Source: Liolophura sinensis (lineage: Eukaryota; Mollusca; Polyplacophora; Chitonida; Chitonidae). Taken from it: a stretch of DNA of 64,000 nucleotides. The position numbers and the translations under genes are program-made. The stretch is taken from the NCBI RefSeq assembly GCF_032854445.1, contig NC_088307.1, forward strand, positions 11,346,001-11,410,000, given 5' to 3'. How positions within the stretch are numbered: the first letter of the stretch is position 1; each line of letters opens with the position of its first letter. This document shows positions 31,129 through 63,778 of this stretch, in pieces. The notes beneath the pieces were generated by a model. It did no database searches and was not told the origin of the DNA. It saw nothing but the letters and a program-made list of their open reading frames with translations.

Positions 31129-31233
31129 GATAATGTTATCTGACCAACCCATGTCAGGTGTGCCACGTCCGGGTACTTAAAACGGTCACATCCACACCTG
31201 CGCCATTCCTGTGACAGTCCTTGTGCTTGACAG
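31129..31233 (+). promoter_or_regulatory. Promoter module and 5' UTR exon of gene A
   Basis: GATAATGTTATC (31129-31140) is a back-to-back pair of GATAA sites with two bases between. CAGGTG follows at 31155-31160. Downstream is a likely untranslated first exon ending TTGACAG|GTAAGT at 31233. The same order occurs before genes B, C and D. The transcription start is not defined. Confidence 0.6.
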
Positions 31234-32204
31234 GTAAGTCCTTAGATGGCGTGCATATCTGTTAATCGAGAAGCAACGGAGTTCATTTCCTCGCGACTCG
31301 AGTCCAAGCTATATTGACTCTTGCTCACCTGCAATGCATGATTTGCACACGTTTTCCAGTTCGCCAAAAAAACACCATCACAAATCCAGGAATGAACAAC
31401 AGATCACACGGCTTGGATCTCTTTAGGATGGGAAAGAATCATCATTGTTAAGGTGATGGGTATATGTGAATCGCGCTCCGGGTAGTGAGACTGCCCCTGT
31501 AAGTCAGGAAGTTAGATATGTTTTGAACAATAAATCGTCTGTTTTGTTGGCAAACTCCCGTTTTCCATTTTTACACCATTTATGTATACGTTTCTATCAC
31601 CTGAATCAACGAGCAACTTTTGGCTTCATTACCGTACAACTATATATGATCTGCTCATCTCTCACCAAGCCACTTTCGGATTCACTATATATACACATAC
31701 ATGTAACTGCAAACAGTGGGGGCTGGGGGGTGGGGGGGTATTGGTGGTGGAAGGAAAGCCACTTGTTTTATATCTGCCGAGGAGCACTCTTGTTTTGGCG
31801 AGAGCGTGGCATTGTGCACGTCTTCACACTTTGGATAACGAGGTTTGTTGGTCAACGTTGTTAGAAATGTCAGAGATAAAGTCCAGTGGGAAATTTCCAG
31901 CTCAGCTTGGCTGAGATATCTCATCATGAGTGAACCATTGATATAAACACATGTACGGAAACAGGATTCGCTCAGTAAAACCTTGGCTATAACTGGAGTT
32001 TGTTCAAATCCCCCTAACTTTAAACGGACTGTTATAAGTAGCGCTTCCAGAAAAAAAAACAACACATATGTCTTCATCGACAAATTTGCAGATTGAAACT
32101 GTATTCTTGACATGGCTAGGTTTTGATCTGGCTTCTGTAGGAAATATTTTAAATGTGCGAATAACTAGTGTTTAGGGTCTAATCTATGCGTCAAAACAGG
32201 CATT

Positions 32205-32560
32205 CGTACAACAGCCGTCAACCAATAAGGACGTTCAAGGGCAATAATTGCAAGACCAGTTTCTAAAACGACGTATAACACAAACCACCAAAGAACGTAG
32301 AAAGTATATCAAGTAGGAAAATAGGACGGAATCATGCAAAGAGAAGCAGTAAACAGTTTTTTATATCTTGTTGTGATCTAATTCAACAAGATGAATATAT
32401 AGCCCTTAGCCCCGGGTTAAGCGGAATTGGACATAATCACGAAGCCGCAGAGATTCTGTGCGCTCTGTCCACAAGTACCTACAAAAGAATTATGCTCACT
32501 GTAAAACTTAAGAAACTTGGAGTGAAGGCGTTTAATGGAATAACCTTGACACACTAGTTT
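32205..32560 (+). repeat. Interspersed repeat X2
   Basis: This begins CAGCCGTCAACC and contains ggacgttc-caggg, gcaataattgcaag, aagtata and gcaaagagaagcagt-aacagt. It is shared with 44100-44550 and partly with 53262-53495. Confidence 0.65.
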
Positions 32561-32704
32561 TTGCAGTGATAACTTGTGACGTCACACATCGTCACACATC
32601 GTCACACAACGCGCAGGATCTAACAAATGCAAGATCCTTCGGTATATTGCTGTCCAAGTAAGGATAATTTACAATGCCGAAATATCCCTCTAGTCGTAAA
32701 GTTT

Positions 32705-32822: not shown

Positions 32823-33035
32823 TAAATGTGCGAAATCCACTATTATTTGTTTGATTGATTAAAGTCGAAGTTTTCACTTTCATTACGGAGATCAATTTTA
32901 TATGCGGAGGAAACCTGGGTATATTTATTTTCTGAAATGGATATTCGGTGATTTTGAAGAACAGTTTTCTTCTATATTTATTTCAGTCTACACAAAAACC
33001 ACTCAGCCATAAAACAGTCGCTGGAATCAGAAATC

Positions 33036-36000
33036 ATGTCAATATTTTGCCTATTAATAATCTGTGGCTTTGCAGGTAAGTGCAATAACTATTTAAACAT
33101 GATCTGCATGAGAAAGAAAATACATTGGATATCTTTAAAATTAAATATTACTGTAATAAAGAATTAATTATACATTTTGTCATCTGAAAAAATCACCATG
33201 ATTTACATCATCGAGTCTTTTTTTTTTCCTACTGTATGGTTTAAAACAGTTTTTGACATTTCGGCCCTATCCCCAATTCTTATTTAAATTCGCCACTTTA
33301 TACATGTATTCCTATTTTAGTGAAATTATTCACCAACACTTATTAATAGATGTTTAAATGCTTTGGATATCATTTCATTTCCATTTTTCAGAGCGTATCT
33401 GCTATCTTATATATCAATTCGTCTAGCCCCCCAAAATTAATCTCATTAGCCTTCAGTATTCCCTGAAAAAGTATTTCCTTGAAAAAAAAATTGACAAAGC
33501 GTGTCTATGAATCTTTTGTCTTGTCTTTTCCACGACGCCTTTGTCCTATGTACATGGTCTTTATACATGCGCCCCCCCCCCCCCCCGCCAGCCACGGTGC
33601 GAGGGGGGTGTATAATTGCTACTATAGTTAGAATAACACCGTATCTCAGGTAAACTTACGAGCCCACATATCCCTGGTTACGTCTGACCGTTTGCCACTT
33701 TTCACACTGTAATCTCTACCAAGATTCTTTTGGCGGACTAAGCATCCCAGAGACCTGGTCCCTTTGCACTGTTTTCATGTTATTGTATATTAAACGTGAT
33801 GACAACACAGCAATTTTAGTAATTCTAGACCAGTGACGTCTAATAAATTGCAATAAGCATCACTGCATTTATGTTACATAATTTTACTAGAGCCATGGTG
33901 CTAGAGAGCTACTGTTTAAGCATATACGTGAACAGTTAGAATAAAACCCTAACTGAGGTAAATTAACAAGAGACCATATTTCACTTGTTACGTGTGACCA
34001 TTTGTCAATATTCACACTGTCGGCGCTGTTCTGGGTTTGCTCTCTATGCTGTAATCCTATTATTATATACCACAGCCGCAGAGCGTCCCATTAACCCGGC
34101 AGAGTTCCCCAAAACTACGAAACTCATCACAGATCTAGCCGGAGTTGCTGGACAATCCTCTGCCTTACATATATGCGTCAACAAAGTGGACACTCCTCTA
34201 GACAAGACCATCCATTTTGGCGATCAAGTGGTTCAAATTAGCGACAAGATGAAGAAGATAGAGCAGAGGACGGAAGTGACGATAGATATCATGAATACTG
34301 TGATGTTGATACCTTACGTGGGACAGGCAGCGTCCATCGTCCTTCACCCAGCGGTGGCCGTCCTTAATACTATCAAGTCTGGGGTAAGTGCGCAAGGAAT
34401 ATGCTCGACTGCTACAGTTATGGTGTGAGGGTTCACTTTGTAAATGCTTGTCCTAAAATCCGTGGCGATTTTCTTTGGCTTGGGTAGCCATTTTCCTAAA
34501 ATTAGCATGAGTTTCAATTCAAACCCAGCGATGGTCGTTATCAACTTCAACAAGTCTGAGGTAAGCGTGCAAGACACATATGTTCCTGTGCTACAGTTAT
34601 GGTGAGAGGATTTTTTTGGACTCGGTAGCACTCCACCTAGAAATAACCTGTTGTCTTTGTCTTTTTCTTTCAGCGTTCAGTTTTTATAAGTAAGTCTCTT
34701 AATACAGTTCGTCTATTAGTAGTGGCCTCATTGCAGTTTGTAAAGATATTAGGATAAGAAGCAAACACGAGTAAAAAAGGCGTCATGTCCAGAAGTCTAG
34801 AGATACTGGACATTCAGAACTAAACTGTGCGCGCGCACAGAAAACCATACCTGTGCGACTTGAGGCTTAGTGAGCACAAGGTGACAGGTCATGTACGACT
34901 TGGTTAAGTATCACTATACTGTGACCAGGTGGAGCCTCGTGTCTTTTGTATCTTACACATCTTTTCAGAAAAACACTGCATTGATATATTCTGACGGTAG
35001 AAACAGTCTTTATATAACAGAAAAAAGCGATGTTAATGCTATATATATAATGTCTGGACTTATATAAAAGGCAATAGACTAGAAAACTAACCAAGTCAGT
35101 TAAAGGATTCCTTGATATGCGTACAGATCAGAAAATAACACAGTTATTTTTGGGTTTCGAGATTTCCCAATTCTTCCAACCAGCAATTCTTTTTTTATTA
35201 TTTAGATAGCGAAGGTCGAGCCGATTGTTGCCGGGTTTGCCAATAAGCTACATACATGGACTGCTCCTCTCCAGACGGTACAACACAAAATTGACTGGGT
35301 GACGGCTAAAATTGGCGCATTTACCAACATTGTGTCCACCAGTGAGTTTTTATACCATGCATTTTCTCAATACCGAAGGAATTATCTCCTTTCTAACATA
35401 TACTACAAGAATTGCTCATAATATGATGAAAATTTTGGTATTTAGGGAGTTTATATTCAGGACAGTAGTTGAAATATAATGTGTGCATTAGTTGAATGTT
35501 GTTTTGGAAATGGCTCTTGCGATTATCGACTTGGAACGCCCTTTACGGACTACGAATGGTATACAAATGTCGGACATGACGCTTATATTTTGGCAATGGA
35601 TCTATTGGATTTGGAATCTATCTACAATGTCTCATTAGTTAGATTCAAATTGTAATTTTCAAATGGACAGCGACATTCTCATGACTCCTAATGTTATATG
35701 GTTGATCAATAATGAGGTAATGTAGGATGAACCTTGGTTACTGGTGTGTAAGCCCCTTTAAGGATATTATGATGTAAAACACGACAGCTTGGAGAGTACA
35801 ACGAGTGAAGCGACCACAACAGCTCTTAAGATTTCGCTCTAACGTCCCCATTTCTTGATGCATACGTTCCCATTTCTTGATGCATACGTCCCCATTTCTT
35901 GATGCATACGTCCCCATTTCTTGATGCATACGTCCCCATTTCTTGATGCATACGTCCCCATTTCTTGATGCATAAAGGATAAATTTAAACATGTTCACAT

Positions 36001-39000
36001 TGAGACATTTCCTCAGAGATGAAACTCAAAGGAGTAACTATTTCTCAAGGAGACAAAATATCTTCCGTATTTCTTATACAAGTCAACCAAAAGCCATAAT
36101 TTAATTTACTTTTGCGACAGTTGATGCCAAAGCAATGGCGGCGGAAGGATGTGCCAACTCACTTCCGGTTGGCAGAACAAAAGTGATCCACGCGCTGGAA
36201 GGTGTTTCCGGCAAATTAGATATCATTCCGCATGGATTCAGCCACCTACTGGGAGAAGTTAACAAGGGCTGCCAAAAAGTGCAAGGTGTCCTCGGGAAAC
36301 TCCACCTACTGCGCAGACGCAGAGGATTACCAAGTCTCAGCAAAGTGAACCGTAAGCTTATGGATTTAAATTTATATTTATGTTTAAGGCTCCATCAAAA
36401 GACGCCATAGTTTGCTGCGATAGCACTGCTCTTTGTTGTTCATTTTCATAATGAGCACCACTACATTAATCGGACATGGAAAGCTTTACCGGTTTTTATT
36501 CATAAAACAAATAACAAAATAGCTAAAATTAAAAAAAAAAGTTATTGTTTTCACAAAACGTTTTTTTCGCTATATGTGTGACGTTTCATTCGGGTTCCAT
36601 TTCAGACGTTTTGGACGCCATTTTGTCGGCATTTGGACCGCTGGGGCACTTTTTGGATGAGGTCGACCACGTGCTGCACAAAAAGTTCTGTCTGCTTAAA
36701 AGGTATCTGTATGCTCATCATTCAACCTTTCTCTGTAGCTTGAATATTTGAACCTGCCTTCTGTATTAGGTTCTGTCGTCTTGAAAGGTCGGAGCACTTG
36801 ATGGCCAAGTGATTGATACCGCATTTGACACCACTAACGTCGGTAGTGGATCTACACCAGGAAATTAGAAAATTTGTTGAAATTATAACAGAAAATAGCT
36901 CTGATATTCATTCAAAGAGATATGATTAACAATTCTCGTGGATCTCGATTCAGCAATTGTATCAACACAACAGGATTTTTCTGCGGCGAAATATTTAACA
37001 AACAAAGTAAAAGCCATTTGTCTTCTGTTTTTAGATTACCAGATTTAATATTCCATTAAAACAACTACAATATTAATATAGACTGAAGTCCCGAAGCTCG
37101 TGTTTGTTGCTGTTTTTTTTTAACTTTTGCAATTTGTTTATGTTTAAAACACAACATAAGCCTACAGGGCTTCATAGGACAAGATGCTATGGCGCATTGT
37201 TTAGACTACAGTCACATTACATCCACACGCACAAACATATACATGCACACATACACGCACATATACACGTACTCATACATCCATACATACACGCACATAT
37301 ACACGTACTCATACACCCATACATACACGCACATACACACGCACACATACACGCACACTTACACATCCACATCCATTTTGATTTGTGAACTTTTCATAAA
37401 AGGCTCCATCTGTTTATCATGAACTGTGTTCACAGCCTTGAGGAATTAGTTAAAGCCGGTGTGAAAATTGGAAAGGAAGTGGCTAAAGGTGCAGAGCACA
37501 TCGGAAAAGAAGTGATCAAGGGAGCTAAGCACATCGTTGATGAGGCCGGCCATGTGTGGGTGGAGGTAGACAAAGCCGCTGAGCATGTCATTCACGAGGT
37601 AGGACACGGCATCGAGCACGCTGGCAAGGAAATCATTAAAGGCGCCGAACATGTTGTTCACGAAGTTGGTAAAGGCGCCGAACACGTTGGTCACGAGGTT
37701 GTAAAAGGCGTCGAACACGTTGGTCACGAGATTAGCAAAGGTGTCCACCACATTGGTCACGTGCTTCATCACATCTTCGGTCGACGGGAGCTGGAAGAGA
37801 ACCTGTACCTCGTCGACGGAAACCTGTACTTACTGGTAAATGTAAGTGACGAGATAGATTGTTGAAGAAAAATGTTTATTTATTTAATTTATTTTTTTTA
37901 TTTGGTTGGTGTTTGACGCCATATTCAATAACACGTTACTTATACGGATGGTGGGAGGAAACCGGGCAGCGCCCTGGGGAAACCAAGACAATCCGCTGGT
38001 TATGACTCTTCAACCTATATACCCGTGCGGTGGTTGATTGGGTTTTCTGCACCCATTAGCCCCTGTCGTGTTTGTTGGTTAGGTTTCCTCCACCCATTAG
38101 CCTCTGTCGTGTTTGTTGGTTAGGTTTCCTTCACCCATTAGCGTCTGCCGTGTTTGTTGTTTAGGTTTCCTCCACCCATTAGCCTCTGCCGTGTTCGTTG
38201 GTTAGGTTTCCTCCAACCATTAGCGTCTGCCGTGTTTGTTGGTTATGTTTCCTCCAACCATTAGCGTCTGCCGTGTTTGTTGGTTAGGTTTCTTCCACCC
38301 ATTAGCCTCTGCCGTGTTCGTTGGTTAGGTCTCCTCCACCCATTAGCCTCTGCCGTGTTTGTTGTTTAGGTTTCCTCCACCCATTAGTGTCTGCCGTGTT
38401 CGTTGGTTATGTTTTCTCCACCCATTAGCCTCTGCCGTGTTTGTTGGTTAGGTTTCCTCCACCCATTAGCCTCTGCCGTGTTTGTTGGTTAGGTTTCTTT
38501 CACCCAAACCTAACCATCATTTAAATGTAAAAGAAATATTCAGTACAACTTAGTAAAGGCACTGATGTAGATAAATACATACAAATCACTCAGTTATCTC
38601 TAAACCTCGGTTTCTTCCTACCATAATGCTGGCCGCTGTTGTAAAAGTGAAATATTCTTCAGGACGGCGTGATAGATGTACAGCATAGAGAGTAAATCCA
38701 GAGCAGCGGCGACACTGTGACAGTTGACAAATGGTCACACGTAGCCGCTGAAATACGGCCTTTTGTCAATTTACCTCAGTTAGGGTTTTATTTTAACTGT
38801 TCATGTAAATGCATAAATAGTAACAAATTACACGCCCCTTAGAACCATGGCTCTAGCAGAATTAGGTAAAAAAAAAATGCAGTGAAGTTAATTGCAATTT
38901 ATTATACATCACCGGTCTAGAATTACTCAAAATGCTGTGTTATATATTTATATAACTAAACAGTGCAACAAAAGTAAGTTCCCCCCAAAACGTTGTTTGA

Positions 39001-40715
39001 TATCTCCCGTGTTATGTACCAGATCGCAATGAAATTTTGCACACACCATCCCAGTAATCCGACGGACGTGGTATATCAAGGATTAACGTACTGGCGCAGT
39101 TGTGCGCTGATGGGTATGCGCAAACTGAAAACCGGTCGATTTTGAAAATTTCACAAAAGGAGTTTTGATTTCATCAGAGAATTCGTGTTACCAGTCCTGA
39201 AATATTCGTGCGGGTGGGCATTGAGGACATGATACACACCGCAAGAAATTCATGCGGTTAAACATAACCTGCATCGGGTCTGAGCTGGTCAGTAAAAGGT
39301 TCTCGGACCTGAATCGCCCACACTGCACTCTATATATTTGTAACCAGTTTTGTATTGCAACAGTGGTTTTCACTCAAACAATGAATAACATAAAGTCTAT
39401 ACAAAATAGGAAGCAACCTGAATCACTTTAAGTGGGTTAAATACTGCGAGACTACGAAGAAGTTGAAGTTGTTGTTGTCGTCAGTGTGATTTATTCTTTT
39501 TTTCAGGGAAGTATGAATACGCGCACGCGCAGAGGCATCGATGTTTGCGTGAGTCTAAGCGACATTCTCAAGGGAGTGAACGCGATCACGGGAGGTCTGA
39601 TTGGTAAAGCTGAGGGTCTTATTGACAAACTTTTCCACGGGAAAAGTCCATTCCACATTCCAGGTAAAAAAGCTATGTGCGATCTATGTAGGCTTTTTGT
39701 GTTGATACTTACCGCTCCACAAGTAACTCTGTCGGTGTGTCGGTCGGTCAGTGGTCCTGTCGGTTGGCCGTTTTGTCCGCCATTCAAGTCACAAGCATTG
39801 CTTTCAGCTTGTCTTCATAATGTCACCTGTCCTGAAAACTGATGTGCTGATATGACATTAAATATCTCTGCAAGGAAGAGTCAAGACATAGAAACCCTTA
39901 CGTTTCAGAAAAGTGGGGTCGAATATCTTGACAGACTGAGTAACATGGTCCTCATGTATAGGTTGGTACAAACGATGAATGCAATGAGCAGTATTTGATT
40001 TCCGCTGAAATATCGGGAGAATTACGGGATTTTGCCAGTTGGAGTAAGGAACCTCGACCTTATTAACCAGTGCCCTCCAACATAAATAGCTATTGGGTAT
40101 TTAGAAGATCAACGCAAATGGAAAACACATGAACAATCTTCCGATATCAATTTCTAATTGTCAATATGAGTCGCGTTAAATAGTGATGTCTACAGCAAAA
40201 TGACAAACCTTCCTGCAGTCTGTTATTCCCACTCTCAAAATCTCGTGCTTCTCGCGAGATCTTCAGGAAAACATCTTTGAACTTGTAATTGTTTCCAGGT
40301 CTCTCCACCGACGTCCTGCACATTGGATCCCTTTTCCACAACCTGAACTTTGCATCGATCCTTCCCAGCGCTAAAGACCTTCTCAAGTTGCCGCAGTTAA
40401 ACATGGAGAATATCCTTAAGCTAAATGTGAAGCTGTTTGATCAGATGTTACCGCAGTGTGCCGCGACATTTGGTATGTAAAAATATTTTTTTTAATTTTT
40501 CTTATTAACAATCAATGTTTTATAACGTTAATAGCCTTATGTTAACGCTAAATTTTGGTGCTTTTGGTCGATGTTTCTTAGGTCTAGTTTGTTCGCAATA
40601 AGCAGAATATGAGGCATTCCAGAAACTGTTCAGGGCAGAAATCTAAATAATAGGACATTTATGTGAATTTATAGAGTCACTTTCTTGTTTTGCAGCTAAA
40701 GTCCACTTTGGATAA
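33036..40715 (+). CDS. Gene A: secreted precursor of an unrecognised tandem family
   Basis: Nine coding exons: 33036-33075, 34076-34383, 35206-35341, 36121-36351, 36606-36702, 37436-37841, 39507-39663, 40299-40472 and 40696-40715. They sum to 1569 nt (522 aa) with consistent GT-AG sites. Exon 1 is a signal peptide. Residues 14-238 are helix-rich with no known domain; Cys falls in HIC, EGC and KGC contexts. RRRR (226-229), GRR (386-388) and RTRR (412-415) are basic cleavage-type sites. Residues 283-381 are nine exact 11-residue repeats of the GKGAEHVGHEV kind, rich in His (18 between 283 and 388 including HHIFG). Six mature cysteines match gene B. A 3' UTR intron starts four bases after the stop codon (donor 40720), with a possible acceptor at 41297-41298. 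A 5' UTR intron separates it from the promoter module. Function unknown. Confidence 0.85.
33571..33588. repeat. Poly-C tract in gene A intron 1
   Basis: A run of roughly 16 C flanked by GCG and GCC. Confidence 0.8.
33745..34060 (+). repeat. Repeat X1 abutting exon 2 of gene A
   Basis: This shares gtgatgacaacacag-aatttt, attctagaccag-gacgtct, aataaaaccc-taac and gtgtGACCATTTGtcaa with the other X1 copies. It ends in CTCTCTATGCTGTAATCC, 15 bases or so before the exon 2 acceptor. Confidence 0.65.
35845..35975. repeat. 22-bp minisatellite, 6 units
   Basis: The unit is CCCCATTTCTTGATGCATACGT without its last bases in some copies. It lies in gene A intron 3. Confidence 0.9.
37210..37375. repeat. 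CA-rich simple repeat just before exon 6
   Basis: Repeats of ACACGCACATA and TACACGTACTC lie about 60 bases upstream of the exon 6 acceptor of gene A. Confidence 0.85.
37880..38005 (-). repeat. SINE-A copy, partial
   Basis: TTTGGTTGGTGTTTGACGCC through GGTGGGAGGAAACCGGGC to AATCCGCTGG. The head is missing. Confidence 0.75.
38030..38510. repeat. 41-bp minisatellite, about 12 units
   Basis: The unit GTTTGTTGGTTAGGTTTCCT then CCACCCATTAGCCTCTGCCG T repeats in gene A intron 6 with few differences. Confidence 0.95.
38585..38670 (+). repeat. SINE-A 3' fragment
   Basis: CGGTTTCTTCCTACCATAAT, GCTGGCCGCTGTTGTAAAAG, AAATATTCTTCAGGACGGCG. Confidence 0.7.
38685..38955 (-). repeat. Repeat X1, reversed copy
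   Basis: The minus strand matches the X1 copies upstream of the exons, including the aaccctaactgaggtaaatt stretch and the ccatggttctaagg region. Confidence 0.65.
38960..39480. other. Gene A intron 6, unclassified
   Basis: The segment from about 38960 (cagtgcaacaaaagtaag) looks like the end of a DNA transposon by style, but no transposase is readable. Confidence 0.3.
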
Positions 40716-44550: not shown

Positions 44551-44635
44551 ATAGTGTTCAAAAGCGTACGGGTCATATCCGAAGGAGAACTATATCGCTG
44601 TTCTCAATTCAGATCGTTAACACTTGTCAGGATGA

Positions 44636-48100: not shown

Positions 48101-51100
48101 CACAGGTAAATATGGGTCATTTTTATGCGATAGTGGTTACTTATATGGGCAGAGGAAGCTAGAGTAACAGGAGTGACCCAACGACCTTTAGCAAGTTACA
48201 GACGGACTTTCCAAAGTGTGATGTTTAGACATGCACACAATATTGGTGGGAGACAAGTGGTCTACAACTGAGATTAGAGTGTGCAAACGGCGACTCCAGC
48301 GTCATCTATCGCTTATTGTCACCAAGGCCCCGAGGACAGAGAGAGTTGCTGAACATGAATATTCTCTGTTCGTAAAGAGAGTGAATAAATTCCCCTTTTT
48401 CAGACTGAGAGGACTTAGTACTGGAACTTCCGTGGCCGAGTGGTTAGCGTGCTAGCGCGGGGCAATAACTCAGAAGCCTCTCAATAAACGGTTGCTGTGT
48501 ATTCAAGTTCAGCTCATGCTGGCTTCCTCTGTTGTCGTACATGGGAAGATCTCTCAACAACATGAGAATGATCGTGGGTTTCCACAGGTTTCCTCCCACC
48601 AATATGTTGGCTGTTGTTGTACAAATGAATTGTTCTTGAGCACGACGTTAAACACCAGTCAAATAAATAAGTAAATAAATGACTACCAGAATGTACCTCT
48701 TGTTAACTCTACCCATAATATACTGGTCTATATCATGTAAGCGAAAATTCACCAGTATACCGTTAAACACCAATATGGAAATAAGTCAATCATTAACTTG
48801 TAGGCAGAGGCTATACAAATGAATTATGTTGCAGTCTGGAAAAACTGGCTGAAGAAGGAGTAAAAGTAGGAAAGGAAGTGGCACAACAAGCTGTGCATCT
48901 TGAGAAGACGGTTATCAAGGATGCTAAGCAGGTTGTGGACGAAGTCGGACATGTTTGGGTTGAAGTGGACAAAGGAGCCGAGAAAGTCATAAACAACGTG
49001 GGCAAAGGCGTCGAAAGTTTGGGCGAGAAAATTATCGACGGCATCAAGGAAGCTGGTGAAGTTGTGGGCAAAGGTGTCGTGAATGCCGCGAAAACGGTCG
49101 GTGAGGAAACGAAACATGTCGTTGAAGAAGTGGGCAAAGGTGTTGTTAACGCGGCGAAAACGGTCGGTGAGGAAACAAAACATGTCGCTGAGGAAGTTGG
49201 TAAAGGTGTCGTAAACGCCGGTAAAACAGTTGCCGAAGGAGTTAACACCGCAGTCCACAAAGTTGGGAGCTTCTTTCATCACATTTTCGGCAAACGTGGC
49301 GTGGCAGAGAACATCTACTTCGTAGACGGGAAACTTTACGTTTTGGTTGACGTAAGCTTTGAATTTTACCAGGCTTTTTCTTATGTGTCATTCATATGCT
49401 TTCGTGTTTTCGTAAAAAAATGTTTTAAAGAAAATAAAATACTTTCCAGCTTCATCAAAAGTCTTCACGGTGGGTTGCATCTAATTTCATCTGTTACTCT
49501 ACCAGCGTAATCCAACATATTGTTTTCGTTACGGTTATAGCTAAGCACTAGACTTTGATTCAAAGTGATACAGAATCGATTCTGATTGGCTTATGTGAGA
49601 GATACACAAGTCCAGTCTATGCCTTGCCTAAGCTCAATATAAGGTATGATACATTTATTGAAGCTGTGACCAAAGCTGTAAGATTTAACCCAGGAAACCT
49701 TATCTCCACTGTCAGCCAATCAAAGTCGATTATGTATCCCTGTTACACAAATGAAATGGTGTTTTAGTTTTGATTTTCGGTCTTGGTAAGTTTTGCTAAC
49801 GTGTGTAAAGACTAAAAATCGTGAAGTACGACTTTAAACCCTAAGCACTCACTCACTCACTCTTTCAGGGAAGTGTAGACACGCGCACGCGCAGAGGGGT
49901 GGACGTTTGTTTCAGCTTGAGCGACGTTTTCAAGGGCATTAACGCCGTCACAGGAGGACTGATGAACAAGGCTAAGGGCTTGATTGACGGCCTTTTCCAC
50001 GGAAAGACTTCATTTAAAATTCCAGGTGTGGATACAGGTCAAAGCATTTTCAGGTATAGGGAGGGGTGCAGTGGATGAGTATTCAGTGAGTTAAACAGGA
50101 CACAAATCTATTGCTTAGAAATATATCAGTTGCTAAACTTGGAGGAAGCTTCTATAAACTCTGTCTAATTAAAAACTACAAGCACAAATTCAATATTGCT
50201 GCCAGACATGACGCGAAAGGCTCATGACTTCTTGCACGTAGGCCCTTCCTTCAGTAAATACCCTAGGTTAAAATATGTATATGTCACAAATGTTATTGAC
50301 ACACCAATCAGCTGAAAGACAGACAGAGATTTGTAGGCCCATAATTATTAAGGAACTTAAGAGGTAAAGTTAAGTCATAAATTACAAGGGCTGGAAAAGC
50401 CAAAGTCAGAACAGGAAAGAACTCACACTATAATTAATACATAGTTCTGCAATAAAGAGTCATTGCAAATAGTTTAATCTTTTAGAGCAAAATATTTTTA
50501 TCGTAGCTGTGGCCACAGGTCAGATGTCTGCAACAAAAGACCAACTATTCCAGAATAAAGTTTGCTTAGTGTTAAACCTGAATCGCAGAACATCATGAAA
50601 ACACTCAAGATTTCCCCATCTTAATAAGAGAAATCGATTGTTTGTTTGATTAGAGTTTAACGTAAAAGCAGCAGTCTGCAACAGTCATATCATCTTGGTG
50701 TCTTATGGTAGCTGGCCAGAGCCAATACGAAGACTAGAAGGCCATGCAGAAAACACCACGCCCCATCCAATATTGGCATACTCGCAGTAGAGTAGAATTA
50801 GAGCCAAGTAGCAAGCAAGGCATGTACAAAGATTGGTGACGTAAAAGCATAAGACTAGACCCTGTTTTTTTCTTCAAATCCGAAAACGCAAACAAAAACT
50901 AAAAACGTAATGTGGGAAGTTACTTGTACTATAGCTGTTTTATGTATGTCGTTTTAAATCTACCCAGGCCTTACTAGTGATGTCCTCAACATTGGCTCTC
51001 TGTTCCACAATCTGGACTTCGGAGGGCTACTCCCGCATCTCAAGGACATCGTGAAGTTACCACAGGTAGACATGGACAAAATCATGAAACTGAATGTGAA

Positions 51101-51617
51101 ACTGTTTGAACAGACACTTCCACAGTGTGCTGCGGTATTGGGTAAGTAGAAAATAGCTCCCTTGACCATTTTAGCCCTGTTTATTATTGTTTATTAATAA
51201 TGATAATATGACTTTATTTCAAACTTAATGTTCTCAAAGAAACATTTGAAGGGAGAGAACGAAGTCTTAATTAGACTAGTTACAGGATCATACCGGAAGT
51301 TGAATGTAATTAGAGAAATGAACTTATTGCGCCACTTAGGTCACAATAAAAATGTCCTAAAGGTTTTGATGGGGGAGAGAATTTGCAAATCAGGTTCTGA
51401 ATAGGTATTGCTCCATCTAAATGCTTTCGAAGGCAAAATAACTTTGTGGTACAGCTCATTAATCAGTAATATAACCCACTGAATTATACTGAGTTAAACA
51501 ATATCCAGATGGCGCTATGTCTGTTTTGTCATAAGTGACTATTGTTACTCATTGCCAAAAGTCAATTGACTAAATCATACATATCTCTTGCCAGCTAAAT
51601 TCAACACGCAAGGATAA
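45116..51617 (+). CDS. Gene B: secreted precursor, paralogue of A
   Basis: Nine coding exons: 45116-45155, 45486-45793, 46226-46361, 47046-47276, 48009-48105, 48835-49351, 49869-50025, 50968-51141 and 51595-51617. They total 1683 nt (560 aa). Every exon except 6 and 9 has exactly the length found in gene A, in the same phase. It has a signal peptide, the six shared cysteines, RRRR (226-229), GKR (423-425) and RTRR (449-452). Exon 6 codes thirteen consecutive 11-residue units (283-425), such as GKGVVNAAKTV and GEETKHVVEEV, ending exactly at the GKR site. A 66-base direct repeat is visible in the exon. The repeats are Lys/Glu-rich and poor in His, unlike A. A 3' UTR intron begins four bases after the stop (donor 51622; possible acceptor 52291-52292). 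Function unknown; the repeat helix suggests lipid or surface binding. Confidence 0.87.
46650..46972 (+). repeat. Repeat X1 upstream of gene B exon 4
   Basis: This matches the 33.75-34.06 kb copy through gtgatgacaacacag-aattt, catttgccaactatcatatt and ctctagttttactccc-atgct. It ends about 70 bases before the exon 4 acceptor. Confidence 0.65.
47735..47912 (+). repeat. SINE-A copy, head truncated
   Basis: This begins CCGTACGTGGGAAGGTCTGC and ends GTACCAATCAAATAAATAAA. Confidence 0.85.
48425..48680 (+). repeat. SINE-A copy, near full length, diverged
   Basis: The head CCGTGGCCGAGTGGTTAGCG leads to the tail ACGACGTTAAACACCAGTC plus AAAT repeats, in gene B intron 5. Confidence 0.8.
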
Positions 51618-55105: not shown

Positions 55106-55489
55106 TCACGTGATTTTTCAACTTTATTCGTTGTCTCAAAACAAATTCGTGTGGGCGTATATGACGCTTGTCGCACATAGGAATATGCTCTGTACAATGT
55201 TTTCCTACAATAATTTGGGATTAATTTGCAGAAAATGCTGGTTAATTGATATGCAGTTTTACCAACAAAACTTACTTTCGAAAATTATTGGAAAAGAAAG
55301 TCCACATGGAGATCATTATTGAAAAATGCGAGGTGCCAGGATCTGATAAATTTTTGCAGCTTGCTTTGCGAGCAGTTTTGTGGGCGAAGGAAACCTGAGT
55401 ACCAATCTACAGACGAAAGCAACTGATCATCAACGAACGTAAGACTTTACAAGCGGTCTCACAGCATCCATCGACCGGATATTTATTAA

Positions 55490-55625
55490 GATGATTGGTG
55501 TTTTTACGCCGCACTTATTTCACTTATATGACGTCGGCCAGCATTATGGTGGGAGGAAAGCGGGGTGAGCCCGGCGGCAGGGGGGACCCAATACCATCAC
55601 TAACCACCTCGGCCACCGAGGTCCC
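55490..55625 (-). repeat. SINE-A fragment
   Basis: GATTGGTGTTTTTACGCCGC to GAGGAAAGCGGGGTGAGCCC. A head piece CACCTCGGCCACCGAGGTCC follows. Confidence 0.7.
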
Positions 55626-55877
55626 TCTCAAATATGCTTAAATGACTTTCCTTTATATTATGCATACGTTTCTATAGTTGCTGTGTTTCGTAATAAACAG
55701 GCCTTCGTGCCGTGTAGACGCTTGAATTGTGCATTTGCCACCTTGACCTAGTGTTGGAAAGTAATCTTAATTTCGATGGATGTATACCCATATCGTTAAG
55801 TAAGACACGTACGTGTGGGACAGGAATATGTGAAGAGTTCAAGATATAGGGAACTTGTGAATGTTCTACCTGTAGAA

Positions 55878-55979
55878 GATAATGTTATCAGTTTTACACC
55901 AGGTGCGGTTATTTTTGCATATTTCAATGCCGTCATTTTTGCAAACGGGTCTTTCTCGCGGCGTTCATTCCAGTAGCAG
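55878..55979 (+). promoter_or_regulatory. Promoter module and 5' UTR exon of gene C
   Basis: GATAATGTTATC (55878-55889) and CAGGTG (55900-55905) have the same ten-base gap as in gene B. A probable untranslated exon ends AGTAGCAG|GTAATT at 55979. Confidence 0.6.
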
Positions 55980-56239
55980 GTAATTTCTATAGACTCATAT
56001 CAGCCTCCATTTGTTTATTCTTGAAATATTTTTGATTCATTCTGGTCTGTTTTTAGGGTTATTTGTCAATTACGATGACCTTGTCAACAAACAAATATTC
56101 TCACACAGCCATCTGTATATTCTTGCAATATTTTTTTTATTTATTTTGATATCTTTTGGGGTTTTTATTTTATCAACTTTGTTGACTTTTCTTATGAATA
56201 ATGATAATTCTGCATGTATGCACTAAATACGATTTCATT

Positions 56240-56707
56240 TGATCTGAGTGGTGTTTTACGCCGTACTCAAGAATATTACACTTATACGACGGCGGCCAGC
56301 ATTATGGTGGGAAGAAACCGGGCAGAGCACTAAATACGAGTGCGTGAGTGTGAGTGCTTGGGGTTTAACGTCGTGCTCAACAATTTTTCAGTCATATGAC
56401 GACGAAGGAATCATTAGGGTGCATGTACGTGTAATGTGCCTCCTTGTTGCAGGACGGATTTCCACCGCTCTTTTATTTAGTGCTGCTTCACTGAGACGAC
56501 TTACCGAAGGCAAGTAAGCCGCCCCGCCCGAGCCATTATACTGATACGGGTCAACCAGTCGTTGCACTATCCCCTTCATGCTGAACGCCAAGCGAGGAAG
56601 TTACAACTTCCTCTTTTAAAGTCTTAGGTGTGAGTCGATCAAGGATTGATCCTGGATCTACCGGTCCCGAAGCGGACGCTCTACCAACTGTGCTATCCGG
56701 GCCGGTC
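56240..56707 (-). repeat. SINE-A fragment followed by full SINE-B
   Basis: 56240-56332 is a SINE-A 3' part that stops at CCGGGCAGAGC. The short target-like ACTAAATACGA flanks a complete SINE-B (56340-56707) on both sides, consistent with a target site duplication of about 11 bases. Confidence 0.8.
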
Positions 56708-56799
56708 ACTAAATACGAAACCATGTCTACGAATATTACAGGACTTAAGGAAAGACCGCCTCGAAAAGACATTGGAGTCACTCGAATAAAGAAACCAAT

Positions 56800-59700
56800 A
56801 TGGCGATACTGTTTTTGCTACTCTGTTGCGGTTTAGCAGGTAAGTTTTAAAAAAAAAAGATAAGTAAAATGGTGGGATTAAACGGTATGGCTGATACATA
56901 CTGATATTATAGAACTGTCTTGATGAGAGAGAGGAATAGACTTTAGTCTTGGAACCATAGAGCAATGCATGGTACTCAGTAATACCTTTGCAATAGTCAG
57001 TAATACCTTTACAATACTCAGCAATACCTTTACAACACTCAGTAATACCTTTACAATACTCAGCAATACCTTTACAATACTCAGTAATACCTTTACAATA
57101 CTCAGCAATACCTTTACAATACTCAGCAATACCTTTACAAATCCTTCATCCATCATGGTGTCATTCATTTTACATTGTAGTTTTGCAAATAATCCCCCTT
57201 CTTTCAGCTGTACAGTATATACAGTTATATTTACATTTTTCTTTGACCTCACAATGTAAGATCCCTCGCTAACTAGGTCATTTCAAAGGGGGAGAAAACA
57301 TAAAAAACAAGCAGATGTCATATAATGAGTAAATATAGTCAAGAATTGTTTTGGCGGACTTCTCAAAATAACTTTTCCTTTCTTCAACTTCGTGACCAAG
57401 TATAAGACACAGCACAATTCATTGTTGGAGAACAGATACAACAGCCGATCTTTAATCTGGTTGAGTGCCATACATACACATGATACATGCATGTACCACA
57501 CTTTCAGGTGTAAAACAGATAAATCGTTTCTTAGAGTTATCTGGAACGTACCCGGCCTTCAAAAAAAACAGAGATAAACCTTTAGCACCATACCAATAAT
57601 GCTTTGTCTGGCCAAACTCTCTGGGAAAAGCACTGGATTGTTCTGGTAAATTTTGCATACATAAAGCAAGCACTACTGTTTACTGTAATGTGTTATGTTT
57701 TCTGGTGCACCATTGCTTATCCACGTATCTTATCAAATTAAAGCAAAAGAAGCCAGAAAACCATCACAAAAGCAGTATTTTCCATAGAAAACATAAATTT
57801 TTGAGTCTAGGAACCACAAACTGTGATATTGAATGATTATTCAGCCCTCATGCCGACGTACATGGCGTTGCATGCCCGCCAAAAAAGCACCCCTATGGTC
57901 CCTCCGTGCGAAGAGAGCATAATTTCTCTCTAATCTTCCCTCAACCGAGAGAAATTACATTGTTTGCTGGATACTTGGGACCACCTCTTGTTATGATGGA
58001 AGATCAATGCATTTACACATTGACATACTCTGAATGAGAATCTGATGCATATCCAATAAATTCATTTAACGTGACAATTCTTGTTTTTAACTAAGATATG
58101 AATTATATCATAATAACGGAGTACATTCTAGCATCGCTCAGAAAATAGACTTTCTGTTAAAATGAAGAGATTAATCTCTTGAGTGTATCACTCCGAACCA
58201 CTGTTATACTTCGCTGTGAAGCAAGTTGTTTTGTTACCGTAAATCCGTGTGACCATTCACCAATTGTCACACTGTCGTCACTGCTCTGGTTTACTCTCTC
58301 TGCTGTAGTCTTTTATATTGTGTACTCCAGCCTCAGGGCGTCAGATCAACCCCAAGGAATTTCCGAAAACCACGGAACTTATCGGGGACCTAAGTGGTGT
58401 GTCCGGGAAATCTACTTCCCTAGAAGCTTGCATCCATAAGGTGGCCAGTCCAATCGATAAAACGATTCGTTTTGGCGACGAAATGGCTGCCATCGGCGAC
58501 AAGATAAAGAAAATAGTGCAAAGAACAGACGTAATCATTGAGATCCTGGATACCGTGATGCTGATCCCGTACGTTGGGGAGGTGGCGGCGGCCGTCCTGG
58601 AGCCGGCCGTGGGTGTACTGAACAGTATCAAGTCCGGGGTGAGAGACAAACCGTGGAGAGAACAACCCACCCGTTGAACAGGATTTAGCAATAATTGTCG
58701 TTTTATTTATGAATTTATTTATTTAATATTTGATTGTTGTTTAAGACCATATTCAAGAATTACCCAGTCAGACGATGACGGTCAGTTCTTATGATCGCTT
58801 GTGTTGTTACCAAAATCAGGGGTATTATTATTCAAATATAGATAGAGGGCATTGCTGTTATGTGATTTACAAAGTTGCGAGTTGTGCAGATTTGCTTTCC
58901 ATTAGATATGGCCGAAGAAAATTGATACTGCTCCCAATAATATGTAAACCCCATTCTCTACAACAAGGAGTCTAACAACAGCTAGAATATCTGTCTTGTG
59001 TGCCTGAAAATAATGAGCCTTCTAAATATAGAATTTTTCCAAATCCGTCAAACGTAAGGTTTTGACATGTCATACATATTATTTAATTGATATCTGGCTG
59101 CTATAATGTATGTACATCAAGTGAAAATAGAATTCCAAAGTATTCCCGAGTGATGAAGAGAGATTCATGAAAATATTAGTGTGGACTATCAAAACCTTAG
59201 GTTTAAAGGGATACAGAATCGATTCTGACTGGCTGGTGTGAGAGATAGGCAAGTCCAGACTATGCCTGGCCTAAGCTGAATTTTAGGTACGGCACATATA
59301 TTCACGCATGACGGAGGCTGCGGTGTTTAACCCAGGAGCCCCGTACCTGTACTGTCAGCCAATCAGCCTCTATTCTGTGTCCCTTGAAAACATTTTGAAT
59401 CATTGCGAATTTAGGTGTTAAAGCTTTGAGGTGTTTACTTACAAAAATCTCCTTATTTGAAATGTTTTTTTAATTCCCCTTTTTTTTATCTACAGGCCTA
59501 TTTTATAGAATACGGAATCCTTTCAGATCGCAAAAGTGAAACCGGAAGTTATAGCATTCGGCAACAAAGTTCACCAGTGGACAGAGCCTCTCAAAACTGT
59601 CCAGCACAAAGTGGAATGGGTGGAAAAATCAATAAACAGTTTTACGGTAATTGTGAATGAAGGTGGGTATAGTGAACATTCATTTTCTGTCCTATTCTTC

Positions 59701-60446
59701 ACCTATTATTTAGGGGCCTCCGTGGCTCAGTCGGTTAGCGCGCTAGCGCAGCGTAATGACCCAGGAGCCTCTCACCAATGCGGTCGCTGTGAGTTCAAGT
59801 CCAGCTCATGCTGGCTTCCTCTCCGGCCGTAAGTGGGAAGGTCTGGCAGCAACCTGCGGATGGTCGTGGGTTTCCCCCGGGCTCTGCCCGGTTTCCACCC
59901 ACCATAATGCTGGCCGCCGTCGTATAAGTGAAATATTCTTCAGTACGGCGTAAAACACCAATCAAAAAAAAAAAAAAAAATCACCAATTATTTCCGCCTT
60001 GCTAGTAAGACTTTACATATTCATAAGCATCTAAAGTCTAATGTATTGTACCTTTTTCTCGGAACTGACACGAGATTAAAAACGGGTTAAGGCGACCTGA
60101 TTTAGAAGAAAATTAACGAAAATCGGAGTTGATACGTTTTATGGAATATACGTTCTTCAGTCGTACAGTGGAAAGAGCTATGTTTTGCACTACTTTTCGT
60201 ACTCTCTGAACACAGTTGAAGGAAAAGCCTCCGCAGCGGAAGGATGCGTCAACTCACTTCCGGCTGGTAGGACGCCTGCAATCCACGCCTTGGAAGGAGC
60301 GTCGGGCAAACTTGACGTCATTCCACACGGATTTCGCGTGGCGTTTGGGGCAGTGGATTCAGGTTGCCGAAAGGTCGAGGGCGCGCTCGCCAGAATTCAC
60401 CTTGTACGCAAACGCAGAGGTTTGCCAAGTCTGAGCAAAGTGAACC
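56800..60446 (+). CDS. Gene C: 3'-truncated copy of the A/B precursor
   Basis: Exons present: 56800-56839, 58331-58638, 59527-59662 and 60216-60446. Their lengths (40, 308, 136, 231 nt) are identical to exons 1-4 of A and B. They join in frame to 238 codons: a signal peptide, the NPKEFPKTTELI segment, three cysteines and RKRRG (226-230), ending in an intact GTGAGT donor at 60447. About 50 bases later the sequence passes into the second copy of the duplicated block. Exons 5-9, which carry the 11-mer repeats and the C-terminal chain, are therefore absent. Either C is a truncated gene made by tandem duplication or the junction is an assembly error. The reading frame is intact in all four exons, which favours recent origin or artefact over old decay. 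Confidence 0.75.
56968..57145. repeat. 21-bp minisatellite in gene C intron 1
   Basis: The unit is CTCAGTAATACCTTTACAATA, about 8 copies, with CAGCAATACC variants. An identical copy lies at 62108-62285. Confidence 0.95.
58105..58187. mobile_element. MITE-1 right-arm fragment
   Basis: The sequence acattctagcatcgctcag then GACTTTCTGTTAAAATGAAG ends CTTGAGTGTATC. The counterpart in copy 2 is 63245-63327, where the first differences between the duplicate blocks occur. Confidence 0.65.
58225..58315 (+). repeat. Repeat X1 3' end abutting gene C exon 2
   Basis: CCAATTGTCACACTGTCGTC then ACTGCTCTGGTTTACTCTCT, followed 15-20 bases on by the exon 2 acceptor (58330). Confidence 0.6.
58680..59526. other. 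Gene C intron 2, nothing distinct
   Basis: AT-rich, with a short decayed SINE-A-like tail (TTTGATTGTTGTTTAAGACC) at about 58705-58760. A stretch at 59212-59390 resembles 49555-49740 in gene B intron 6 (gatacagaatcgattctga), a further interspersed repeat. Confidence 0.45.
59714..59988 (+). repeat. SINE-A copy, full length and little diverged
   Basis: The head GGGGCCTCCGTGGCTCAGTC leads through GTGAGTTCAAGTCCAGCTCA to GTACGGCGTAAAACACCAAT and an A-run. It is the best preserved copy in the window and lies in gene C intron 3. Confidence 0.92.
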
Positions 60447-60499
60447 GTGAGTGTTGTTTGTCTAATTCACTAGAGACCCTTTTTACAAATCATTCGCAA

Positions 60500-63314
60500 C
60501 TTGCTTTGCGAGCAGTTTTGTGGGCGAAGGAAACCTGAGTACCAATCTACAGACGAAAGCAACTGATCATCAACGAACGTAAGACTTTACAAGCGGTCTC
60601 ACAGCATCCATCGACCGGATATTTATTAAGATGATTGGTGTTTTTACGCCGCACTTATTTCACTTATATGACGTCGGCCAGCATTATGGTGGGAGGAAAG
60701 CGGGGTGAGCCCGGCGGCAGGGGGGACCCAATACCATCACTAACCACCTCGGCCACCGAGGTCCCTCTCAAATATGCTTAAATGACTTTCCTTTATATTA
60801 TGCATACGTTTCTATAGTTGCTGTGTTTCGTAATAAACAGGCCTTCGTGCCGTGTAGACGCTTGAATTGTGCATTTGCCACCTTGACCTAGTGTTGGAAA
60901 GTAATCTTAATTTCGATGGATGTATACCCATATCGTTAAGTAAGACACGTACGTGTGGGACAGGAATATGTGAAGAGTTCAAGATATAGGGAACTTGTGA
61001 ATGTTCTACCTGTAGAAGATAATGTTATCAGTTTTACACCAGGTGCGGTTATTTTTGCATATTTCAATGCCGTCATTTTTGCAAACGGGTCTTTCTCGCG
61101 GCGTTCATTCCAGTAGCAGGTAATTTCTATAGACTCATATCAGCCTCCATTTGTTTATTCTTGAAATATTTTTGATTCATTCTGGTCTGTTTTTAGGGTT
61201 ATTTGTCAATTACGATGACCTTGTCAACAAACAAATATTCTCACACAGCCATCTGTATATTCTTGCAATATTTTTTTTATTTATTTTGATATCTTTTGGG
61301 GTTTTTATTTTATCAACTTTGTTGACTTTTCTTATGAATAATGATAATTCTGCATGTATGCACTAAATACGATTTCATTTGATCTGAGTGGTGTTTTACG
61401 CCGTACTCAAGAATATTACACTTATACGACGGCGGCCAGCATTATGGTGGGAAGAAACCGGGCAGAGCACTAAATACGAGTGCGTGAGTGTGAGTGCTTG
61501 GGGTTTAACGTCGTGCTCAACAATTTTTCAGTCATATGACGACGAAGGAATCATTAGGGTGCATGTACGTGTAATGTGCCTCCTTGTTGCAGGACGGATT
61601 TCCACCGCTCTTTTATTTAGTGCTGCTTCACTGAGACGACTTACCGAAGGCAAGTAAGCCGCCCCGCCCGAGCCATTATACTGATACGGGTCAACCAGTC
61701 GTTGCACTATCCCCTTCATGCTGAACGCCAAGCGAGGAAGTTACAACTTCCTCTTTTAAAGTCTTAGGTGTGAGTCGATCAAGGATTGATCCTGGATCTA
61801 CCGGTCCCGAAGCGGACGCTCTACCAACTGTGCTATCCGGGCCGGTCACTAAATACGAAACCATGTCTACGAATATTACAGGACTTAAGGAAAGACCGCC
61901 TCGAAAAGACATTGGAGTCACTCGAATAAAGAAACCAATATGGCGATACTGTTTTTGCTACTCTGTTGCGGTTTAGCAGGTAAGTTTTAAAAAAAAAAGA
62001 TAAGTAAAATGGTGGGATTAAACGGTATGGCTGATACATACTGATATTATAGAACTGTCTTGATGAGAGAGAGGAATAGACTTTAGTCTTGGAACCATAG
62101 AGCAATGCATGGTACTCAGTAATACCTTTGCAATAGTCAGTAATACCTTTACAATACTCAGCAATACCTTTACAACACTCAGTAATACCTTTACAATACT
62201 CAGCAATACCTTTACAATACTCAGTAATACCTTTACAATACTCAGCAATACCTTTACAATACTCAGCAATACCTTTACAAATCCTTCATCCATCATGGTG
62301 TCATTCATTTTACATTGTAGTTTTGCAAATAATCCCCCTTCTTTCAGCTGTACAGTATATACAGTTATATTTACATTTTTCTTTGACCTCACAATGTAAG
62401 ATCCCTCGCTAACTAGGTCATTTCAAAGGGGGAGAAAACATAAAAAACAAGCAGATGTCATATAATGAGTAAATATAGTCAAGAATTGTTTTGGCGGACT
62501 TCTCAAAATAACTTTTCCTTTCTTCAACTTCGTGACCAAGTATAAGACACAGCACAATTCATTGTTGGAGAACAGATACAACAGCCGATCTTTAATCTGG
62601 TTGAGTGCCATACATACACATGATACATGCATGTACCACACTTTCAGGTGTAAAACAGATAAATCGTTTCTTAGAGTTATCTGGAACGTACCCGGCCTTC
62701 AAAAAAAACAGAGATAAACCTTTAGCACCATACCAATAATGCTTTGTCTGGCCAAACTCTCTGGGAAAAGCACTGGATTGTTCTGGTAAATTTTGCATAC
62801 ATAAAGCAAGCACTACTGTTTACTGTAATGTGTTATGTTTTCTGGTGCACCATTGCTTATCCACGTATCTTATCAAATTAAAGCAAAAGAAGCCAGAAAA
62901 CCATCACAAAAGCAGTATTTTCCATAGAAAACATAAATTTTTGAGTCTAGGAACCACAAACTGTGATATTGAATGATTATTCAGCCCTCATGCCGACGTA
63001 CATGGCGTTGCATGCCCGCCAAAAAAGCACCCCTATGGTCCCTCCGTGCGAAGAGAGCATAATTTCTCTCTAATCTTCCCTCAACCGAGAGAAATTACAT
63101 TGTTTGCTGGATACTTGGGACCACCTCTTGTTATGATGGAAGATCAATGCATTTACACATTGACATACTCTGAATGAGAATCTGATGCATATCCAATAAA
63201 TTCATTTAACGTGACAATTCTTGTTTTTAACTAAGATATGAATTATATCATAATAACGGAGTACATTCTAGCATCGCTCAGAAAATAGACTTTCTGTTAA
63301 AATGAAGAGATTAA
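60500..63314. repeat. Identical block, copy 2 of the 5140-bp tandem duplication
   Basis: This matches 55360-58174 with a constant offset of 5140 and repeats all its content: a SINE-A fragment at 60630-60765, the SINE-A plus SINE-B pair at 61380-61847 and the 21-bp array at 62108-62285. Confidence 0.92.
61018..61119 (+). promoter_or_regulatory. Promoter module and 5' UTR exon of gene D
   Basis: Identical to the gene C module: GATAATGTTATC at 61018-61029, CAGGTG at 61040-61045 and a presumed exon end at 61119. Confidence 0.6.
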
Positions 63315-63778
63315 CCTTTTGAGTGTATCACTCCGAACCACTGTTATACATCGCTGCGAAACAGGTTGTTTTGTTACCGTAAATTCGTGTGACCATTCAC
63401 CAATTGTCACACTGTCGTCACTGCTCTGGTTTTACTCTCTCTGCTGTAGTCTTTTATATTGTGTACTCCAGCCTCAGGGCGCCAGATCAACCCCCAAGGA
63501 CTTTCCGAAAACCACGGAACTTATCGGGGACCTAAGTGGTGTCCGGACAATCTACTTCCCTAGAAGCTTGCATCCATAAGGTGGCCAGTCCAATCGATAA
63601 AACGATCCGTTTTGGCGACGAAATGGCTGCCATCGGCGAAAAGATAAAGAAAATAGTGCAAAGAACAGACGTAATCATTGAGATCCTGGATACCGTGATG
63701 CTGATCCCGTACGTTGGGGAGGTGGCGGCGGCCGTCCTGGAGCCGGCCGTGGGTGTACTGAACAGTATCAAGTCAGGG
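61940..63778 (+). pseudogene. Gene D: partial copy with frameshifts in exon 2
   Basis: Exon 1 (61940-61979) is identical to that of gene C. Exon 2 (63472-63778) is 307 nt instead of 308. One C is added in a C-run (CAACCCCCAAGG, near 63490) and two bases are lost in GGTGTGTCC, which reads GGTGTCC (near 63540). Read straight through, the frame meets a TAG near 63563. The downstream part of the exon is intact and well conserved in another frame, with the GTGAGA donor kept. Exons 3 onward would lie beyond the window. It is a young pseudogene, or a gene whose consensus sequence has base-calling errors in short repeats. Confidence 0.65.

Follow-up and report, generated by a model that had tools for sequence, protein, structure and literature searches.

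A tandem family of putative secreted precursors with an eleven-residue amphipathic helix repeat in the chiton Liolophura sinensis

Several described protein systems bear on the genes reported here. Clusterin (apolipoprotein J) is laid out as a signal peptide, cysteine-bearing parts, a furin site and an amphipathic helix, and the cysteines of vertebrate clusterin are spaced C-x10-C-x2-C-x4-C and C-x9-C-x6-C-x2-C. Alpha-synuclein and the perilipins are intracellular and are not known to be cut by furin. Group 3 LEA proteins use repeats of eleven residues (11-mers); LEA proteins are mostly intracellular, and are not known to carry furin sites or cysteines. To our knowledge, little is known of lipid carriage in the class of molluscs to which chitons belong. 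The subject of this work is a tandem gene family (copies A–E) in the chiton Liolophura sinensis, which, to judge from its sequences, has no match among the described protein families of the libraries searched. It lies in, and extends to the right of, a 64,000 bp stretch of contig C13 (C13:11346001–11410000; hereafter, the window). Contigs of the assembly are labelled C7, C8, C11, C13, C99 and C632, and positions above 64000 continue the numbering of the window.

Genes A and B each consist of a noncoding first exon followed by nine coding exons, and splice into products of 522 aa (A) and 560 aa (B). The coding exon lengths are 40, 308, 136, 231, 97, 406, 157, 174 and 20 nt in A, and 40, 308, 136, 231, 97, 517, 157, 174 and 23 nt in B; that is, the two genes differ in length solely at exon 6 and the last exon (exons are numbered in the text from the first coding one). 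Intron phases are 1,0,1,1,2,0,1,1 in both genes, and all eight introns between coding exons are bounded by GT-AG in each. In alignments of A with B, the nine coding exons are 59–75% identical and the eight introns 44–53%; the noncoding first exons are 57% identical and share the donor GACAG/gtaagt (a slash marks a splice or cut site). The 40-nt exon, as counted here, begins at the ATG and ends at the donor; an acceptor and a stretch of 5' untranslated sequence precede the ATG. The exon encodes a hydrophobic N-terminus: the most hydrophobic segment of both products is the first 19 residues, which are signal-peptide-like. An in-frame MMWTYHIIILL... immediately 5' of the B 308-nt exon was dropped as the signal peptide, because A, B, C and D all have the 40-nt exon (E has a candidate for it) and because an acceptor is present at 45485.

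Comparison of nonsynonymous and synonymous substitution rates (dN/dS, by NG86) gave a ratio of 0.159 for A–B over the whole gene, with dS at 1.65 (near saturation). Over exons 1–4, the ratios are 0.094 (A–C) and 0.067 (B–C), and over exons 3–7, 0.150 (A–D) and 0.158 (B–D). These ratios are rough, since dS is 1.5–3.1 (near saturation) across the five comparisons; the corresponding ratio of proportions, pN/pS, is 0.25–0.33 in all of them. A and B are under purifying selection. A sequence-only reading of this DNA had claimed two complete nine-exon genes with shared exon lengths and phases, signal peptides, and selection visible in the conservation between A and B; the gene structure and the selection are borne out, and the hydrophobic N-termini agree with the signal peptides.

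Further copies were sought in the whole genome (a 609,464,459-base, 632-contig assembly) with a rough A protein as the query, and 95 of 119 candidates were scored. At E ≤0.001 there were 44 matches: 31 on C13 at 11.380–11.427 Mb, two on C8, and 11 elsewhere. The latter (seven on C11, three on C13 near 2.5 Mb, and one on C7) involve the helix part only, and the repeat genes on C11 and at C13:2.52M were dropped as family members (hhalign probability 0.3–0.4%). With the C8 paralog as the query, all 23 matches at E ≤0.05 fell on C8 or in the C13 cluster.

None of the further copies is intact as assembled. Copy C has exons 1–4 with the shared lengths, while exons 5–8 were found only 3' of D. The region from the C promoter to C exon 3 is repeated at D with 99.2% identity, and the match resumes over exon 4 (59984–60463 versus 64830–65310, 97.5%). 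D exon 2 carries shifts of +1 and −2 relative to C and is out of frame; D exons 3–8 lie beyond the window, and its exon 8 is one base short compared with A, resulting in an early stop. Given that C ends after exon 4, that exons 5–8 occur only after D, and that D is frameshifted, C exons 1–4 and D exons 5–8 may form one gene. C and D are hence more likely one gene with a tandemly duplicated 5' half than two copies, the latter being how the sequence-only reading had taken them; of its claims on the partial copies, that of shared exon lengths holds for C exons 1–4, and that of shared phases fails at the out-of-frame D exon 2. The last part of the combined gene would still be cut short as assembled. 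Heterozygosity of this genome is given as ~1.24% (PMC11068029), close to the divergence between the two blocks, so an assembly artefact joining two haplotypes is possible; the window contains no N, which makes a joining error slightly less likely.

Copy E, to the right of D, has exons 2–7 plus a candidate 40-nt exon (MLSFLLLLGITCV). It carries a GC in place of the GT donor after exon 5, its exon 7 is shifted by +1, and the 10 kb 3' of it revealed no exon 8; E is partly decayed. The C8 paralog, which is diverged and broken, retains all six Cys codons and the order of the exons, with an identity of 20–57% depending on the exon; in exon 4 the frame is lost and a TGA occurs, and exon 6 encodes only 36 aa, without the repeats. 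With these defects in C/D, E and C8, only A and B are intact as assembled. A separate observation is that the 3' end of an exon, together with its own donor, has been amplified in the following intron: 13.4 copies of a 103 bp unit in copy E (L002:2193–3595), 16.5 copies of a 49 bp unit in a clusterin-like gene (L006:4871–5679), and one diverged copy in gene A (Table 1).

Two features recur along the protein. Firstly, A and B contain exactly two R-X-[KR]-R motifs each, in the same two places: RRRR/G at the 3' end of the 231-nt exon and RTRR/G at the 5' end of the 157-nt exon. At the first site, C and D have RKRR, E has RRRR and C8 has KRKR; at the second, D has RTRR, E has RSRR and C8 has RGVR. 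Secondly, the mature products hold six cysteines, at positions 47, 172, 212, 267, 420 and 512 in A, and at the same first four positions followed by 457 and 549 in B. The C8 paralog and D likewise have all six Cys codons (two of those in D lie in the shifted exons 2 and 8), and five are seen in E, which lacks exon 8. We infer cleavage at the two furin-type motifs and pairing of the cysteines. Assuming a 15-residue signal, cleavage would yield three chains in A and B: an N chain of ~214 aa with three cysteines, a middle chain of 186 (A) or 223 (B) aa with one, and a C chain of 107 or 108 aa with two. Given the odd counts on the N and middle chains, at least one bond would be interchain—most simply between N and middle—if all of the cysteines pair.

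The middle chain includes the product of exon 6, the core of which comprises 110 (A), 147 (B), 125 (D) or 143 (E) residues, with no proline and no cysteine, in 10–13 units of eleven residues. The lag of best self-identity is 11 residues in A, D and E, and 22 in B. The periodicity of hydrophobicity is strongest at 99 degrees, or 3.64 residues per turn, for all four copies, and none of 2000 shuffles of each was as strong. In A and B, the helix has a mean moment of 0.42–0.44 and hydrophobic, aromatic and charged fractions of 0.40, 0.01–0.02 and 0.29–0.31, respectively (moments were computed as sliding means with the Fauchere-Pliska scale, and not by HeliQuest itself). In Table 1 of PMC5889406, the same four quantities are 0.39/0.40/0.065/0.35 for ApoA-I, 0.30/0.47/0.02/0.24 for alpha-synuclein and 0.35/0.37/0.01/0.23 for Plin3; the values for A and B fall among the lipid-binding helices of that paper, close to those tabulated. 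Exon 6 is predicted to encode a '3-11' amphipathic helix with statistics of the lipid-binding type.

Upstream of all five C13 copies lies, in the same orientation, an identical 13-bp element (AGATAATGTTATC), which we take to be an inverted pair of GATA cores. In A, B, C and D the element lies ~97–105 bp upstream of the first-exon donor; GACAG/GTAAGT occurs further on in E. The 13-mer is not generally enriched: there are 44 matches genome-wide (five of them at this cluster) versus 28 for the reversed control. In 200 simulations of the 92-kb stretch with a first-order Markov model, the 12-bp core occurred on the plus strand 0.005 times on average. The C and D elements are shared through recent duplication, and so four occurrences are independent. 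A looser 15-bp form (up to three mismatches) is not beyond chance, with six matches in the window versus 3.04 expected, and as many in 5 of 100 shuffles; the claim stands on the exact 13-mer. The element was not found in the C11 loci examined.

We tentatively propose, at a little short of an even chance, that the family encodes a secreted, furin-cut, disulfide-linked protein, the central chain of which adsorbs to lipid or other hydrophobic surfaces; it would resemble apolipoproteins and clusterin while being a member of neither. The following steps are envisaged: (i) the signal peptide would direct the precursor into the secretory path, (ii) furin-type proteases would cut it at both motifs into the N, middle and C chains, (iii) the N and middle chains would remain joined by a disulfide, (iv) on contact with lipid or a hydrophobic surface, the proline-free units of the middle chain would form one long 3-11 helix, much as alpha-synuclein, the perilipins and the exchangeable apolipoproteins do, and (v) the protein would serve as an extracellular binding protein for lipid particles or hydrophobic clients. 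The GATA-type element would switch the copies on, and repeat number would adjust them.

A number of points weigh against this proposal. The C8 exon 6 core (23 residues) shows no significant period, with 12% of shuffles as strong; lacking repeats, this paralog implies that the helix is not required for all functions of the family, although the C8 copy is itself broken. KRKR, the first C8 site, falls short of a complete furin motif, and the C8 loci examined did not reveal the 13-bp element. AlphaFold models are unusable, with a predicted local distance difference test score (pLDDT) of 42.8 for exon 2 (3 rows) and 40.7 for exon 6 (2 rows). Finally, the similarities to PF01442 and to synuclein detailed below may be what any 11-mer helix would yield.

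The library searches were performed as follows: the first Pfam and PDB searches used rough joins of 503 aa (A) and 540 aa (B) that lacked the signal peptide and the residues at the junctions, the final B was searched whole against NCBIfam and in two pieces against Pfam, and the final A was used only as a PDB profile row. Nothing exceeded the curated cut-offs of Pfam or NCBIfam for the A and B queries, and no PDB match was credible by sequence or profile. The lowest E-values were 0.0058 (PDB 4uos, a designed helical bundle), 0.0062 (PF01442), 0.0073 (PF05531), 0.011 (PF06911), 0.012 (PF15984 and PF21629) and 0.021 (NCBIfam ZorA_3); these matches lie mostly in the helix (PF05531 in exon 2, PF21629 in exons 3–4) and were set aside as composition. 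The PF01442 value belongs to B (16.7 bits versus a cut-off of 90), and A is not among the matches listed; PF07464 is not among the listed matches of either. Similarity to synuclein in the PDB reached E 1.2 at best with phmmer and 1.3 by profile, which is not significant. With the N part as the query, 107 viral and 51 prokaryote pattern matches were obtained from viral and prokaryote contigs, with no relative among them; among animals, the searches covered this genome. No description of the family was found among the papers listed by the literature searches, and six peptide strings of the family were likewise without a match in the papers of the library. The chiton radula protein RTMP1, novel and secreted, was rejected as an identity: its Gly/Ser-rich, WF-rich and His-rich regions, as described in PMC6351634, do not fit. 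The earlier view of the products as unrecognised thus stands for most of the protein, with the qualification that exon 6 can be read as an 11-mer amphipathic helix.

Of the rival explanations, the one that survives best, unlikely as it is, is an extracellular chaperone, in which the helix, as in clusterin, would bind proteins that are unfolding, and not lipid, with the chains staying linked. The family would share the clusterin plan, and the same genome holds a seven-copy clusterin-like array, also with 11-mer helices. However, A and B have no CxxC motif and only six mature cysteines, and hhalign comparisons with the non-helical parts of the clusterin-like genes gave probabilities of 0.3–0.4% in four of four cases. 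The clusterin profile PF01093 also failed to match the window proteins: there was no match for rough A and B (E ≤10) or for B exons 1–5 or 7–9 (E ≤1), although HMMER filters drop most matches above E ~0.1. A genome search with PF01093 gave no match either, but the controls were equally silent, making it uninformative.

The clusterin-like array lies at C11:18.312–18.404 Mb (L008, L009, L010, L014–L017), where all seven loci read are near-identical tandem genes encoding a signal peptide, C-x10-C-x2-C-x4-C, an 11-mer helix, an RKKR site and C-x9-C-x6-C-x2-C, a cysteine spacing that we take to be that of vertebrate clusterin. A rough model scores 21.7 bits against PF01093 (cut-off 23.6), and a mollusc clusterin array is possible. 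It is not shown to be related to the window family. Two further loci at C13:2.519–2.538 Mb (L006, L007) combine a CxxCxxxxC motif with long His-rich 11-mer helices.

A shade less probable than a chaperone is a LEA-like protectant, the 11-mers of which would stabilise proteins or surfaces when this intertidal animal dries out or freezes. The proline-free 11-mer helices of low hydrophobicity would suit such a role; against it stand the mostly intracellular location of LEA proteins and their lack of furin sites and cysteines, and no LEA family is among the listed Pfam matches for the A and B queries. To the same low degree we entertain a structural, mucus or metal-binding secretion, with His-rich helices binding metal or cross-linking. 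The helix contains 16 (A), 13 (D) and 22 (E) His residues, but only five in B, meaning that His is not conserved across the copies, whereas the period is. Least likely is a membrane-active defence precursor from which furin would free a membrane-disrupting amphipathic helix: in its favour are tandem duplication, secretion, the two cleavage motifs and, around TVMLIPYVG in exon 2, a run of hydrophobic residues, but the helix core is acidic (net charge −6, −5, −2 and −13 in A, B, D and E), unlike cationic antimicrobial helices, and selection is purifying, not diversifying.

Table 1. Positions of the exons, promoter elements and repeated segments of the gene family, in window numbering.
Feature	Position	Strand	Remarks
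13-bp element AGATAATGTTATC, A promoter/exon 1	31128..31140	+	
A noncoding exon 1	31129..31233	+	start approximate, placed at conserved element; by alignment with B
A exon 2	32987..33075	+	ATG 33036, 40 coding nt; putative signal peptide MSIFCLLIICGFA
A 308-nt exon	34076..34383	+	INPAEFP..., hydrophobic helix
A intronic extra copy of 308-nt exon end and donor	34523..34612	+	diverged; 74% to 34346-34433
A 136-nt exon	35206..35341	+	
A 231-nt exon	36121..36351	+	2 Cys, furin-type site RRRR/G
A 97-nt exon	36606..36702	+	1 Cys
A 406-nt exon	37436..37841	+	predicted 11-mer amphipathic helix
A 157-nt exon	39507..39663	+	furin-type site RTRR/G, 1 Cys
A 174-nt exon	40299..40472	+	last Cys
A last exon	40696..40715	+	coding part, stop
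13-bp element, B	44635..44647	+	
B noncoding exon 1	44636..44732	+	start approximate
B exon 2	45070..45155	+	ATG 45116; putative signal peptide MVVLFLLFFCGLA
B 308-nt exon	45486..45793	+	
B 136-nt exon	46226..46361	+	
B 231-nt exon	47046..47276	+	furin-type site RRRR/G
B 97-nt exon	48009..48105	+	
B 517-nt exon	48835..49351	+	predicted 11-mer amphipathic helix
B 157-nt exon	49869..50025	+	furin-type site RTRR/G
B 174-nt exon	50968..51141	+	
B last exon	51595..51617	+	coding part, stop
Tandem block, first copy (promoter to C exon 3)	55353..59695	+	99.2% to 60493-64834
13-bp element, C	55877..55889	+	
C coding exon 1	56800..56839	+	MAILFLLLCCGLA
C 308-nt exon	58331..58638	+	intact
C 136-nt exon	59527..59662	+	
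C 231-nt exon	60216..60446	+	site RKRR/G
Tandem block, second copy (D)	60493..64000	+	continues past window to 64834
13-bp element, D	61017..61029	+	
D coding exon 1	61940..61979	+	
D counterpart of 308-nt exon	63473..63778	+	frame broken versus C; start approximate
13-bp element, E	start 72683 (window-continued)	same orientation	

Elsewhere in the window, a Tc3-type transposase fragment (PF01498, E 3.1e-9) lies at 54437–54835 on the minus strand, and minisatellites occupy 1792–3004 (42 bp, 29 copies) and 20751–21239 (35 bp, 14 copies). Four Cys-rich open reading frames, at 9105–9431 (+), 15429–15668 (+), 16418–16636 (+) and 22720–23055 (−), resemble Ly6/three-finger exons; none has a Pfam match at E ≤0.05. 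In the wider assembly, C99 is a concatemer of mitochondrial DNA with seven COX1 copies ~15.5 kb apart (one partial), while C632 contains COX1 once, and eight matches to PF14830 (mollusc haemocyanin) form one cluster, consistent with a molluscan source.

A bolder version of our proposal, which we hold to be doubtful, is that an extracellular carrier of three chains, cut by furin and linked by disulfides, arose in chitons independently of apolipoproteins and clusterin, and that the number of repeats within one exon sets the length of its helix, with all C13 copies under one GATA-type element. If true, a 3-11 helix of the synuclein/perilipin type would be exported, and released by furin from between two unnamed parts. 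The copies, with 10 to 13 helix units plus a diverged, nearly helixless one, would then constitute a natural series for relating helix length to surface binding. Should the reading hold for the gene family alone, the result is an unnamed secreted family, definable by six cysteines, two cut-site motifs and a fixed exon pattern.

Of the known systems, the exchangeable apolipoproteins (PF01442) and apolipophorin III (PF07464) resemble the proposed protein in being secreted and having long amphipathic helices, and the eleven-residue period of PF01442 is found in A, B, D and E, though not in the short C8 exon. Unlike them, the family has two furin-type sites, six cysteines and helix-free parts, features for which we know of no counterpart in either system. 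ApoA-I is close to the A and B helix in composition and moment, on the tabulated values (PMC5889406). Alpha-synuclein and the perilipins share with the family the eleven-residue units, few aromatics, absence of proline and, by the same table, a moment of similar order (PMC5889406); alpha-synuclein differs in having no significant sequence match to the family. Clusterin (PF01093) is like the predicted protein in secretion, a furin-type motif, an amphipathic helix and cysteines on what would be separate chains. It differs in that the cysteines of the family are single and widely spaced, rather than in the clusterin arrangement, in that the family has two putative cut sites versus one, and in that the family has no profile similarity to the clusterin-like genes of the same genome.

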